Assembly (NCBI GenBank): GCA_001800315.1
Contig: MGVE01000007.1
Span: 124,001 to 188,000, forward strand
Reading direction: 5' to 3'
DNA length: 64,000 nucleotides
DNA from: Elusimicrobia bacterium RIFOXYA2_FULL_47_53
GTDB taxonomy: Bacteria > Elusimicrobiota > Endomicrobiia > Endomicrobiales > XYA2-FULL-47-53
In this document: piece after piece, positions 59,806 to 64,000 of the stretch
Numbering within the stretch: position 1 is the stretch's first letter
Layout: each line of letters opens with the position of its first letter
Program-made: the position numbers and the translations under genes
Notes under the pieces: generated by a model
What the model was told of the DNA's origin: nothing
Databases searched by the model: none
Seen by the model: only the letters and a program-made list of their open reading frames with translations

Positions 59806-60345
59806 TCAGGTGTTCATCCAGTTCCAGACTTTGCCTTCCTCCTCCATCATCCAGTCTCCCGGCTCGGTCAGATAGCGGTAAACATTCACAATCGCGTCAA
59901 GGTGCTGTTTTTCCTCCTGCATCAGAAATTCAAAAAACTTCTTTTCTTCGGGTGAAGAGGCTTTTTTGCTGAAGTCCCGGTAGGTGGCGTAGCTTTTCTT
60001 CTCTAACTCCATCGCCAGCTCATAGCCAGCTGTGTTTCCCGCGCTGTTCTTAAGGCTGGTTTTATTGGCTCTGGTAAAAAAATCCTTTATCGCGGCTTCA
60101 ACGGACGGCATGTTCTTGGGAAGCGAAACCTTACCCTTAGAACCGGTCTTTATCATATTATACATCTCGTCAATTTTCTGGGCGTGCACAACTTCCTCTC
60201 CCGCCAGCGAATAAAAAAGCTTCTTGGTAAGAATATTTCTGGACTTTGCGGCCAGTTTCAGATAAAAGTTGACGCCTTTAACCTCTAACCCTATGGAAAA
60301 ACCAAGGGAAGTAAGCTTACCGGACAATCCTGACGCTTTGACCAT
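59806..60345 (-). CDS. Ferritin-like rubrerythrin-type protein
   Basis: This 179-residue protein starts at 60345, chosen because AGGAGG lies 4 bp before this ATG, whereas the longer frame from 60384 overlaps the promoter -10. The four-helix domain has GLEVKGVNFYLKLA, LAGEEVVHAQKIDEM (ExxH), AMELEKKSYATYRDF and MQEEKQHLDAI (ExxH). It has no rubredoxin domain. It probably handles iron or peroxide. Confidence 0.87.
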   Translation of the reverse strand: MVKASGLSGKLTSLGFSIGLEVKGVNFYLKLAAKSRNILTKKLFYSLAGEEVVHAQKIDEMYNMIKTGSKGKVSLPKNMPSVEAAIKDFFTRANKTSLKNSAGNTAGYELAMELEKKSYATYRDFSKKASSPEEKKFFEFLMQEEKQHLDAIVNVYRYLTEPGDWMMEEEGKVWNWMNT

Positions 60346-60379
60346 AACTCCTCCTTTTGCCTTTGCTGACTCTTTTTTT

Positions 60380-60408
60380 ATCATATTAAATTAAACCACC
60401 TAAGTCAA
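60380..60408 (-). promoter_or_regulatory. Promoter for the ferritin-like gene
   Basis: On the minus strand TTGACT (60403-60408), 17 bp, TATGAT (60380-60385). Confidence 0.7.
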
Positions 60409-60483: not shown

Positions 60484-60512
60484 TTGACAAAAAAACCGCC
60501 TTGTTGTATAAT
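60484..60512 (+). promoter_or_regulatory. Consensus promoter and likely operator for the ArsR operon
   Basis: TTGACA (60484-60489), 17 bp, TATAAT (60507-60512): a perfect sigma-70 match. Just downstream lie two direct TTAAC units (ATATTAACTTATTAACA, about 60521-60537), a possible ArsR-type operator overlapping the start point. Confidence 0.8.
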
Positions 60513-60581
60513 TAATGAAAATATTAACTTATTAACATCTAAACTGAGGCTATGAAAAGCCTTTTCAAAAGGAGAGTGCCT

Positions 60582-60944
60582 GTGAACAGCGAGAATTTTG
60601 AGAAGAAAATCTTTGAGATGCATGCCGAGCTCTGCAAAACCCTGTCAAACCCCAAGAGGCTTGAGATCCTGAGCATTCTCAGGGGCGGCGAAAAGCAGGC
60701 CGGAGAGATTTCAACATACCTGAAAATCAGCAAAGCCAATCTGTCCCAGCACCTCTCTATTTTAAAGCAAAAGAAACTTATACTGCAGAGGCGCAGCGGA
60801 GTAAACCTGTTTTACAGGGTGGCCGACCCCAGGGTTTACAAGGGCTACGACTGTTTAAGAGATATTCTCTTAACCCAGCTTCAGGAACACAACAAATTTT
60901 ATACTAACATCAACTTCAAGGAGGCCCAGAATGCCAATATTTGA
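60582..60944 (+). CDS. ArsR-family winged-helix regulator
   Basis: This 120-residue repressor-type protein starts at GTG 60582, with AAGGAG 8 bp before it. The recognition region is AGEISTYLKISKANLSQHL and the wing LQRRSGVNLFYRV. Only Cys18 region (ELCKTLSNPKRLEIL, here residue 17-18) and one later Cys are present; the CxC pair of classical arsenite sensors is missing, so the inducer is not clear. It probably controls the five genes downstream. Confidence 0.92.
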   Translation: MNSENFEKKIFEMHAELCKTLSNPKRLEILSILRGGEKQAGEISTYLKISKANLSQHLSILKQKKLILQRRSGVNLFYRVADPRVYKGYDCLRDILLTQLQEHNKFYTNINFKEAQNANI

Positions 60945-61143
60945 ATACAAATGCGGCAAATGCGGGCATAAATTTGAACAGCTGACTTTTGAGAGCGAAA
61001 GCAAAACCGTAAAATGCCCGAAATGTTCCTCTGAAAACACGGAGAAACAGTTTTCCCAGTTCGCAAGCGGCAATTCAAAATCCGGGCAGAAAAACTTTTC
61101 GTGCCCCACGGGCGGCTGCTGCCCCGGCTGCAATAACAATTGA
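60931..61143 (+). CDS. FmdB-family zinc-ribbon protein with Cys-rich tail
   Basis: This 70-residue protein has the FmdB zinc ribbon PIFEYKCGKCGHKFE and CPKCSSENTEKQF, then a Cys-rich tail CPTGGCCPGCNNN. It overlaps the regulator by 14 bp, with AAGGAGG before the ATG, so they are coupled. The tail would bind a thiophilic metal. The role is not known. Confidence 0.9.
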   Translation: MPIFEYKCGKCGHKFEQLTFESESKTVKCPKCSSENTEKQFSQFASGNSKSGQKNFSCPTGGCCPGCNNN

Positions 61144-61162
61144 CAATTAAACGGAAAATTCA

Positions 61163-61819
61163 ATGACCCTGGAAAATCAAATAAACATAAGATACGGCGA
61201 ACTCGCGGAAAGCAGCTGCTGCCTTTCCTGCGGAGGAGCCATTGATCACGCTAAGGCCCGCGAGGGAGAGACCTGCCTTGACCTCGGAAGCGGCAGAGGC
61301 CAGGACGCCCTGAAACTCGCGCAGGAAGTCGGCGATAAAGGCCTTGTTTACGGCATAGACTTATCCGACAAGATGATAGCCAAAGCCGAGCGCACTGCGC
61401 AAAAGCTCGGCATCAGCAATGTAAAATTCATCAGGTCAAACCTTGAAAACCTGCCCCTTGAAAGCTCATCGGTTGACCTAGTAATCTCCAACTGCACCAT
61501 AAATCACGCTTCGGACAAACAGGCGGTATGGCGCGAGATATACAGAGTGCTCAGAAAAGGCGGCCGTTTTGTTATAAGCGATATTTACGCCTTGCGGGAA
61601 GTTCCCCCTGAGTACAAAAACGATCCGGCAGCCGTGGCCGAATGCTGGGCCGGCGCTTCAACCCGCGAGGCATACCTGAAAACGCTTTGCGCTTCGGGGT
61701 TTCCCGAGGTCAGCATAATTGAAGAGAGCAAACCCTACGATAAAGGCAAAATAACGGTGGCAAGTTTTACGGTTTCGGGCATAAAAGACCCGAAACCCGT
61801 TTCCTGCTGCTGCAAATAG
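61163..61819 (+). CDS. ArsM-like SAM-dependent methyltransferase
   Basis: This 218-residue protein resembles arsenite methyltransferases: SAM motif CLDLGSGRGQDAL near residue 38, DLSDKMIAKAE, LENLPLESSSVDLVISNCTI near 100 and CWAGASTREAYL near 160. Cys in SNC and CWAGA correspond to the arsenite-binding positions of ArsM, and SSCCLSCGG near residue 18 adds more. The C-terminus ends PVSCCCK. It may methylate arsenite or another thiol-bound substrate. Confidence 0.88.
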   Translation: MTLENQINIRYGELAESSCCLSCGGAIDHAKAREGETCLDLGSGRGQDALKLAQEVGDKGLVYGIDLSDKMIAKAERTAQKLGISNVKFIRSNLENLPLESSSVDLVISNCTINHASDKQAVWREIYRVLRKGGRFVISDIYALREVPPEYKNDPAAVAECWAGASTREAYLKTLCASGFPEVSIIEESKPYDKGKITVASFTVSGIKDPKPVSCCCK

Positions 61820-61840
61820 AACCCTAAAAGGAGAAAGAAG

Positions 61841-61966
61841 ATGAAAGAGCAGACCGCCAGAAAAACAGGAATGAAAACGCTGATCGTCAAAAAAGCCAAA
61901 AACGAAAAGAAAATAGCCCAGTGCTGCGCGAAAATATCCGCTGTTGTCGCCGGCTGCCACGACTAA
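61841..61966 (+). CDS. Small Cys-containing peptide (41 aa), candidate precursor for the radical SAM enzyme
   Basis: This very short gene has AAGGAG 7 bp before its ATG. The peptide begins MKEQTARKTGMKTLIVKKAK, is Lys-rich for about 25 residues, and ends IAQCCAKISAVVAGCHD with three Cys in the last 14 residues. A basic leader plus a Cys-rich core directly before a radical SAM/SPASM gene is the layout of a ribosomally made, modified peptide. No homologue is recognised. Confidence 0.72.
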   Translation: MKEQTARKTGMKTLIVKKAKNEKKIAQCCAKISAVVAGCHD

Positions 61967-62004
61967 AGCGCCGCCTTATTACAATACCGCCGTTCCGGAG
62001 TTTT

Positions 62005-63315
62005 ATGTATTTCTCCAGGCACAACATATTCTCAAAGCTAAAGGATTCCGATAACTATTTTATCGTGAACCTGCTTACGGGCAGCGCGGATATACTCGCG
62101 CCCGAGAAGGCTGCCGAGATAAAACGCGGCGAGTACTCAGATATTGAGGAATACAAAAACAAAGGCTACCTGGCCGAGGAAGACTCCGAGAAGAAATTAT
62201 TCAACTCCAGGTATCTGGACTTTATCAGAAACCGCGAGAACGACGAGATGCAGCTGTTTTTCGTGCCCTGGTACGAATGCAACTTTAAGTGCAGTTACTG
62301 CTACCAGTCCGAATACAGCAACGAATCCGTTCAACTGCAAAAACCGGTCATAGACGCCTTCTTTGCGCACATCTCCGAAGCTTTCCGCGATAAAAGAAAA
62401 TACATAACAATTTTCGGCGGCGAGCCGCTTCTTTCCGGCAGTATCCAGAAGGAGATGATAACCTACCTTATCTCGGAAGCCGCAAAAAGAAATATTGACT
62501 TGGCCATAGTCACAAACGGATACAACATAACAGGCTACTCCGAAGTACTGGCAAAAGCGCCCTTGCGGGAGATACAGATCACGCTGGACGGCACCCGGGA
62601 AATCCATGATAAAAGGCGCGCTCTTAAAAACGGCGGAGGCACCTTTGATAAAATAGCCGAGGGGATTGATTTTTGTCTTTCCAAAAAAATACCGGTAAAC
62701 CTGCGGGTTGTAATTGATTCGGAGAATATCAATAACCTGGTTGAACTCTCCGGCTTCGCGGCCCGTAAAGGCTGGACTGACAGCCCGTTTTTTAAAACCC
62801 AGCTGGGCAGAAACTACGAACTCCACTCCTGCGGCAGCCATAAGCCGGCCCTTTTTGACAGGGCGAAAATGTACGAAGAACTCTACGAGCTTTTAAAAAT
62901 TCATCCCGATATTCTAAAATTCCACAAACCGGCGTTTTCAGTTTCAAAATTCCTTTCAGAAAACGGCGAGCTTCCCTCCCCCCTGTTTGACTCCTGCCCG
63001 GGATGCAAAACAGAATGGGCCTTTGACTATACCGGTTCCATTTATCCCTGCACGGCAACTGTTGGCAAAACCGGCGAGAAAATAGGAAGCTTTTACCCGA
63101 AAACATCTTTAGACGAAGGGCGAATTGAGGCATGGCAGGACAGGGATGTCACTTCCATAGAGAAATGCGGGGATTGCCCGCTGCAGCTCGCCTGCGGCGG
63201 AGGCTGCGGCTCCGTCGCCAGAAATAATACAGGAAAACTGCTAAGCCCGGACTGCAGGCCGGTAGACAAACTCCTTGAACTGGGCCTGTCGGCCTACTTC
63301 GGTGAAAAAATCTGA
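62005..63315 (+). CDS. Radical SAM/SPASM-domain peptide-maturase-like enzyme
   Basis: This 436-residue enzyme starts at ATG 62005 with GGAG 4 bp before. The radical SAM cluster motif is Cys92-xxx-Cys96-xx-Cys99 (CNFKCSYC), followed by FGGEPLL. The C-terminal SPASM set is complete: CX9GX4C (Cys334 to Cys349), CX2CX5CX3C (Cys388, 391, 397, 401) and a final Cys417, holding two extra clusters. The N-terminal 85 residues look like a peptide-binding region. The substrate is probably the upstream 41-residue peptide. Confidence 0.92.
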   Translation: MYFSRHNIFSKLKDSDNYFIVNLLTGSADILAPEKAAEIKRGEYSDIEEYKNKGYLAEEDSEKKLFNSRYLDFIRNRENDEMQLFFVPWYECNFKCSYCYQSEYSNESVQLQKPVIDAFFAHISEAFRDKRKYITIFGGEPLLSGSIQKEMITYLISEAAKRNIDLAIVTNGYNITGYSEVLAKAPLREIQITLDGTREIHDKRRALKNGGGTFDKIAEGIDFCLSKKIPVNLRVVIDSENINNLVELSGFAARKGWTDSPFFKTQLGRNYELHSCGSHKPALFDRAKMYEELYELLKIHPDILKFHKPAFSVSKFLSENGELPSPLFDSCPGCKTEWAFDYTGSIYPCTATVGKTGEKIGSFYPKTSLDEGRIEAWQDRDVTSIEKCGDCPLQLACGGGCGSVARNNTGKLLSPDCRPVDKLLELGLSAYFGEKI

Positions 63316-63333
63316 TTGCAAAAAGAGGCGCAA

Positions 63334-64000
63334 ATGACTGAAAAAATTACTTATGTCAACGGCGAAACTTTTGACAGCGAAGTGCTGAAATCCGCCTTAG
63401 CCGTTGTGGATTTCTATTCAACGGAATGCCCCCCCTGCGAAGCGCTCGCGGCCAAATTTGAACCGCTCTCGGAACTTTACGGAGGCGACATTAAATTTGT
63501 CAAAGTTTTCAGGCAGGAAAACAGGGCCCTGGCGGAATCGCTCTCGGTAAAATCTTCACCGACCGTTCTTTTTTTCGTAAACGGCAGGGAAACCGGAACC
63601 CGCCTGACCGGAGGCGTTAAGAGAAGCGAGCTTATTCAAAACCTGGATGCCATGCTAAACCCGAAAAGAGCCGCTGAAATTAAATCAAAAATCATACCGA
63701 TAGAAACCAAAACCGATGTGCTGATACTTGGAGCCGGTCCGGCCGGCCTTACCGCGGCCATTTACACCGCCCAGGCAAAACTTAACACAATTATCATTGA
63801 CAGAGCGCTTTCCGGCGGACAGGTCGCCACTACTCACCAGGTTTCCAATTTTCCGGGATTTACGCAGCCTGTCGCGGGATATGAGCTTATGCACCGCATG
63901 AACGAACAGGCCAAAATCGCCGGCGCTCAAACCAGGTACGCCGTGGATCTTACCAGAGTGGATCTTAAAACCAAAACCGTGACTATTGACGGCTTTGAGA
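63334..64000 (+). CDS. Thioredoxin-thioredoxin reductase fusion (partial, cut by window end)
   Basis: The first 222 residues are seen. Residues 1-110 form a thioredoxin domain with active site ECPPCEAL, a CPPC variant of the usual CGPC, and SSPTVLFFVNG after the cis-Pro. From about residue 128 a TrxB-type FAD domain begins (VLILGAGPAGLTAAIY, ALSGGQVATTHQVSNFPG). It reduces disulfides with NAD(P)H. GAGG lies before the ATG and it follows the radical SAM gene by 18 bp. The C-terminal half, with the reductase CxxC, lies beyond the window. Confidence 0.9.
   Translation, partial: MTEKITYVNGETFDSEVLKSALAVVDFYSTECPPCEALAAKFEPLSELYGGDIKFVKVFRQENRALAESLSVKSSPTVLFFVNGRETGTRLTGGVKRSELIQNLDAMLNPKRAAEIKSKIIPIETKTDVLILGAGPAGLTAAIYTAQAKLNTIIIDRALSGGQVATTHQVSNFPGFTQPVAGYELMHRMNEQAKIAGAQTRYAVDLTRVDLKTKTVTIDGFE

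Follow-up and report, generated by a model that had tools for sequence, protein, structure and literature searches.

A conserved four-gene module for putative radical SAM peptide modification, with a compact ArsM-like methyltransferase and a possible role in As(III) handling

Radical S-adenosylmethionine (SAM) dependent ribosomally synthesized and post-translationally modified peptides (RiPPs) that have invariant cores and lack an assigned role, such as SCIFF, present a long-standing puzzle, and the broad conservation of the SCIFF core argues against an antimicrobial role (PMC8326336). Here, we describe a locus at the end of a 64,000-nucleotide stretch of DNA (the window; positions 124,001 to 188,000 of contig MGVE01000007.1) of Elusimicrobia bacterium RIFOXYA2_FULL_47_53, a member of Elusimicrobiota. 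Four of its genes, encoding a short cysteine-containing peptide, a radical SAM/SPASM maturase, a compact ArsM-like methyltransferase and a thioredoxin-thioredoxin reductase (Trx-TrxR) fusion, constitute a module present in at least four bacterial phyla. We regard the module as a new family of the radical SAM RiPP type, for which As(III) handling is the leading putative function. In this family the question of a role is narrowed by universal partners, namely a methyltransferase in which precisely the cysteines that bind As(III) are kept and a thioredoxin system reserved to the module.

Among described systems, the SCIFF ranthipeptides with their maturase CteB (5WGG/5WHY), the closest solved structure, share with the module a short cysteine-containing precursor encoded beside an RRE-SPASM radical SAM enzyme and a broadly conserved core. 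Unlike SCIFF, the module peptide has three core cysteines instead of six, the window maturase scores 80.9 bits against a TIGR03974 cutoff of 425, and the module has ArsM and Trx-TrxR partners and occurs in other phyla. The best sequence-model matches of the module maturases, and the top NCBIfam matches of all 44 homologues, are CefB (NF038107), TIGR04463 and PapB, whose partners are cysteine-rich peptides. The module peptide nevertheless lacks the cysteine at every fifth residue that is characteristic of CefAB, and since the scores of the window maturase (154, 132 and 126 bits) are all far under the respective cutoffs of 600, 525 and 340, the maturase belongs to an unnamed family. The compact methyltransferase has the fold of ArsM/AS3MT and each of the three cysteines that ligate As(III), but differs by the absence of the C44-C72 loop and of 18 residues after C224, by a leucine to histidine replacement and by its location outside ars operons. 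Pairing of ArsM with a radical SAM enzyme is known from the arsinothricin arsQML genes and from the ArsM/ArsS pair of arsenosugar synthesis (PMC8552651), which have no precursor peptide and use another class of radical SAM enzyme, arsQML in addition being located within an arsenic-inducible ars operon. Finally, the MNIO-made metal-binding RiPPs (bufferins and thiooxazole metallophores; PMC12668002, PMC12538549) are likewise ribosomal cysteine peptides modified for soft-metal binding, although with another enzyme class and another peptide. Neither the peptide nor the maturase family is represented by an NCBIfam model, and no publication describing the module was found among open-licence papers, so that it is apparently undescribed. 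The genes of the module in the window are:

61163..61819, plus strand: compact ArsM-like SAM methyltransferase, whose C23, C111 and C161 align with C72, C174 and C224 of CmArsM
61841..61966, plus strand: precursor-like peptide of 41 residues, conserved from Met11 (61871), with the C-terminal core AQCCAKxSxxxxGCHD
62005..63315, plus strand: radical SAM/SPASM peptide maturase with an N-terminal RRE-like domain
63334..64000, continuing to about 64617 beyond the window, plus strand: thioredoxin (CPPC)-thioredoxin reductase (CATC) fusion

The preliminary description of this DNA staked the peptide on conservation of its 41-codon frame beside homologous radical SAM genes and on purifying selection, and both were found: the 41-codon open reading frame (ORF) is a genuine gene. 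In the window its ATG is preceded at a few bases by AAGGAG. When genomes were scanned with the radical SAM protein, 80 loci with 52-61% identity were retrieved, making 81 with the window locus. In 77 of these 81 a gene for a small peptide with an AQCC(A)KxSxxxxGCH(D/N) end lies upstream of the maturase gene. Of the remaining four loci, two are cut at a contig end, and for three of the four the peptide was recovered by a search of the whole genome. The length originally given applies only in part, as translation in most homologues starts at the equivalent of Met11 and the usual peptide has 30-39 residues; the N-terminal extension of the 41-residue form is shared by a sister Elusimicrobia genome, where a Shine-Dalgarno sequence of its own accompanies it. 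In the 31-residue form the core cysteines are at positions 18, 19 and 29. Over 112 peptides, counting from the C terminus, A-16, C-14, C-13, K-11, G-4, C-3 and H-2 do not vary, and Q-15, S-9 and D-1 hardly vary. The mean ratio of non-synonymous to synonymous change (pN/pS) over leader and core codons is 0.18, with pN below pS for every pair, values that carry the caveats that the pattern used to pick peptides fixes some core residues and that pS is near saturation; a looser peptide pattern and the later profile searches were independent of the strict core pattern. Conservation and purifying selection together rule out a chance ORF. Some peptides (L195-L198, L205, L208-L209) have an additional CC pair in the variable leader, for example SCCSTA or SCCAPA.

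The loci retrieved with the radical SAM protein come from Bacteroidota, Ignavibacteria, Spirochaetota, Elusimicrobiota and one delta-proteobacterial metagenome-assembled genome (MAG), nearly all hosts examined being draft genomes or MAGs. Peptide and maturase occur together: among 396 Bacteroidota genomes the peptide profile matches six, and the same six are matched by the radical SAM profile when a family-level score (>690 bits) is required; two further genomes contain only a distant radical SAM enzyme (208-240 bits) without the peptide. Similarly, among 100 Elusimicrobiota relatives the peptide is found only in G000 and G001, the same two being the only ones with a radical SAM match above 160 bits. 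With the peptide profile alone as query, the peptide was identified in 31 of 198 genomes from the phylum to which the spirochaete locus L037 belongs, and in 11 of 284 from that of the delta-proteobacterial locus L098. The trio of peptide, radical SAM enzyme and ArsM-like gene, for which a search in related genomes had been suggested, was recovered far beyond the window genome, since all 36 peptide-seeded loci, from 34 peptide-positive genomes, have the same radical SAM enzyme and the ArsM-like gene. The Trx-TrxR fusion, also placed in the system from the outset, is present in the retrieved DNA of 30 of these 36, and five of the six loci without it are on truncated contigs, leaving L208 as an exception, whether real or only apparent. 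The three module enzymes have correlated distance matrices (Mantel r 0.83-0.89), partly through shared species history. As for single loci, the L208 module has no Trx-TrxR within 11 kb, whereas its close relative L209 has one, and genome G921 contains three complete modules (L202, L203, L204) with different leaders and nearly identical cores.

The maturase has the general attributes of a radical SAM RiPP enzyme, with a conserved precursor beside it, CxxxCxxC and SPASM cysteines and a predicted leader-binding RRE. Its radical SAM motif C92xxxC96xxC99 and the seven-cysteine SPASM set, reported as complete in the preliminary description, are invariant in 44 homologues. In its AlphaFold model (predicted local distance difference test, pLDDT, of 85) the best PDB match, along the full length, is the thioether synthase CteB, and the N-terminal domain, modelled with pLDDT >90, has the order beta-beta-beta-alpha-alpha-alpha, from which we infer an RRE. 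Loci L131-L135, which encode sister radical SAM enzymes, were searched for this peptide and for ArsM and proved to be different systems. Near distant Bacteroidota SPASM enzymes (208-240 bits) of this group, a small cysteine-containing ORF ending in CEFCDPIFCAPVKPTE or CIGKCDSICSPVVQLD was observed (L131:5582-5737 and L132:5026-5208, both minus strand), possibly a separate peptide system.

With the arsenite methyltransferase model NF008823 the compact methyltransferase scores 200 bits, under the cutoff of 263; in a structural comparison every one of its top 13 matches is an As(III) methyltransferase. C72, C174 and C224 of CmArsM are the As(III) sites (PMC3877260 for human AS3MT), and the cysteines of the module enzyme at these places, the first being that of the LSCGG motif, are invariant wherever covered (72/72, 75/75 and 75/75). 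The other cysteines are dispensable, as C19/C20 and the cysteine tail are lost in divergent spirochaete copies that keep the triad; the tail is common among homologues but not obligatory. Selenocysteine as a replacement for absent tail cysteines was discarded, the stops being TAA or TAG and the single TGA having no cysteine-like continuation. In comparison with the canonical ArsM of the same genomes, the compact family has SNCxxNH, with an invariant His115, where aligned canonical copies have SNCxxNL. This replacement and the missing loop and segment suggest a more open active site, which may accommodate a larger, perhaps peptide-bound, substrate. In the fusion partner, the thioredoxin motif is mostly CPPC and the reductase motif CATC is nearly invariant.

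From these data it is tentatively proposed, with a likelihood that we place a little under even, that the locus is a dedicated radical SAM peptide-modification module, in which the cysteine peptide and the compact ArsM handle As(III). The lysine-rich N-terminal half (MKSLxxKKK...) of the 30-45 residue peptide would be bound by the RRE-like domain of the maturase, and the SPASM enzyme would modify the core at the C terminus, the invariant AQCC(A)KxSxxxxGCHD; a thioether or another radical cross-link, fixing the geometry of the three core cysteines, is the most likely modification. The modified peptide may then serve as an intracellular thiol ligand of fixed function and not as an antibiotic, as suggested by an invariant core, a variable leader and the absence of a recurrent exporter or peptidase from the tallied neighbour families. 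The substrate that the ArsM-like enzyme would bind and methylate is a soft element in the trivalent state, most likely As(III), which the peptide thiolates would either pass on or hold, and the Trx-TrxR fusion would re-reduce the cysteines of both the peptide and the methyltransferase.

Metalloid chemistry is favoured because the As(III)-ligand cysteines are invariant. The arsenic reading gains further support because the core has three invariant cysteines, the number needed by a tris-thiolate As(III) site, and because ArsM enzymes are known to need thiol reductants. In addition, Acr3 is commoner in module genomes (31 of 33) than in a Bacteroidota sample (124 of 198; Fisher p 0.0002, confounded by lineage and habitat). 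However, several observations weigh against arsenic as the substrate. The module sits outside ars operons: no ars transporter or reductase (Acr3/ArsB, ArsC) recurs in the Pfam neighbour tallies, which cover the 25 commonest families of each locus set, and ArsP, whose linkage had been considered because of one neighbour match, proved rare, being near only 3 of 117 loci. In a comparison of 24 genomes Acr3 never shares a contig with the compact ArsM, and a second, canonical ArsM adjoins Acr3 in 9 of the 11 genomes that have one; classical arsenic detoxification is therefore served elsewhere. Moreover, thioether formation would consume cysteine thiols, and the operon neighbours in Bacteroidota are of sulfur type, those elsewhere being mixed. 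Lack of ars linkage and the sulfur-type neighbours call for caution, and the metalloid reading is no more than plausible, a trivalent metalloid ligand being the leading possibility and a thiol or sulfur carrier its main rival. A more specific version, for which the chances are clearly lower, holds that the modified peptide is an obligate ligand of As(III) or another trivalent metalloid, acting as co-substrate or scaffold of a specialised ArsM, which would lead to peptide-bound organoarsenicals or to a methylation of arsenic that does not depend on glutathione and has a dedicated thioredoxin system. Binding of arsenic by the peptide, if real, would establish a ribosomal metalloid ligand of a new kind and open a new branch of the arsenic biochemistry of anaerobes.

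The alternative that survives best, although we consider it rather less probable than As(III) handling, assigns the same module to sulfur or thiol chemistry, the peptide being a redox cofactor or a carrier of thiol or persulfide groups, and methylation by the ArsM paralogue being directed at a sulfur species or a peptide thiol and not at arsenic; this would make the peptide a new peptide thiol cofactor. Such a role fits the Bacteroidota neighbours, which include rhodanese (6 of 102 loci), OsmC (5), methionine gamma-lyase type proteins (4), YeeE-type sulfur transporters (3), lone thioredoxins (40 loci) and flavoprotein oxidoreductases. The presence of a separate canonical ArsM, His115 in place of leucine, and the automethylation of cysteines reported for AS3MT (PMC9013690) point in the same direction. 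It accommodates less well the invariance, amid the loss of other cysteines, of precisely the As(III)-ligand triad, for which a sulfur methyltransferase has no obvious need, and the fact that the neighbours vary without any universal sulfur gene. Improbable, but deserving consideration, is an organoarsenical natural product built on a ribosomal scaffold, since both known organoarsenical pathways pair ArsM with a radical SAM enzyme and this pairing is universal in the module; yet the maturase is of SPASM/RRE type, in contrast to ArsL and ArsS, most secreted antibiotics lack such an invariant core, and ArsP is as rare as described above. Still less credible is a small redox cofactor excised from the core and decorated by the methyltransferase, in the manner of pyrroloquinoline quinone (PQQ) or mycofactocin: an invariant core and a housekeeping-like distribution would agree with it, but the conserved residues span 16 positions and not a di- or tripeptide, and no peptidase recurs among the tallied neighbour families. 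Very hard to maintain is an ordinary operon for arsenic resistance in which the radical SAM gene is unrelated and the small ORF a product of chance. The ArsR and ArsM annotations in the window and the confounded excess of Acr3 would suggest it, but conservation of the peptide refutes the chance ORF, the peptide is linked to the module across at least four phyla, and ars genes are not regularly linked to the module.

In the window, six tightly packed genes on the plus strand follow a perfect sigma-70 promoter (60484-64617, the last gene exceeding the window), in agreement with the initial description. Successive genes are separated by -14, 19, 21, 38 and 18 bases, and the fusion, of 427 residues on the full contig, is followed by convergent genes. 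The features upstream of the module are:

60484..60512, plus strand: sigma-70 consensus promoter TTGACA-17-TATAAT, with 12/12 matches
60582..60944, plus strand: ArsR/SmtB family regulator, local and outside the conserved core (NF033788, 73 bits, cutoff 55)
60931..61143, plus strand: FmdB family zinc ribbon with a CCPGC tail, a local extra (TIGR02605, 60 bits, cutoff 31.3)

The ArsR gene has a GTG start with a Shine-Dalgarno sequence, and a further open ATG lies upstream at 60552. Cysteine-rich tails are present as first reported, with CCPGC in FmdB, SCCCK in the methyltransferase and CC...C in the peptide. Elusimicrobia bacterium RIFOXYA2_FULL_50_26 (G001), of the same family, carries the locus too (L035), with the CCPGC tail kept. 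Membership of ArsR and FmdB in the system was not borne out, as ArsR accompanies the module only in the two Elusimicrobiota genomes (window and sister, L035/L006) and FmdB in these and at one other locus. Both are local extras, and the system thus comprises four genes and not six.

Besides the module genes, a 79-residue membrane protein with a PCSSC end and no Pfam match is often encoded just upstream of the ArsM-like gene (30 of the 81 loci, e.g. L096:855-1091), and DUF302 (32 loci) and DUF1847 (16 loci) proteins recur nearby. No HgcA motif, as a link to mercury methylation, was found in the window or in the loci scanned for it. Directly downstream of the operon, just past the window, a convergent gene (L005:4640-5563, minus strand) may encode a cation diffusion facilitator. 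On the other side, the operon promoter is adjoined by a divergent gene for a rubrerythrin/ferritin-like protein (59806-60384, minus strand) with weak similarity to the encapsulin cargo EncB.

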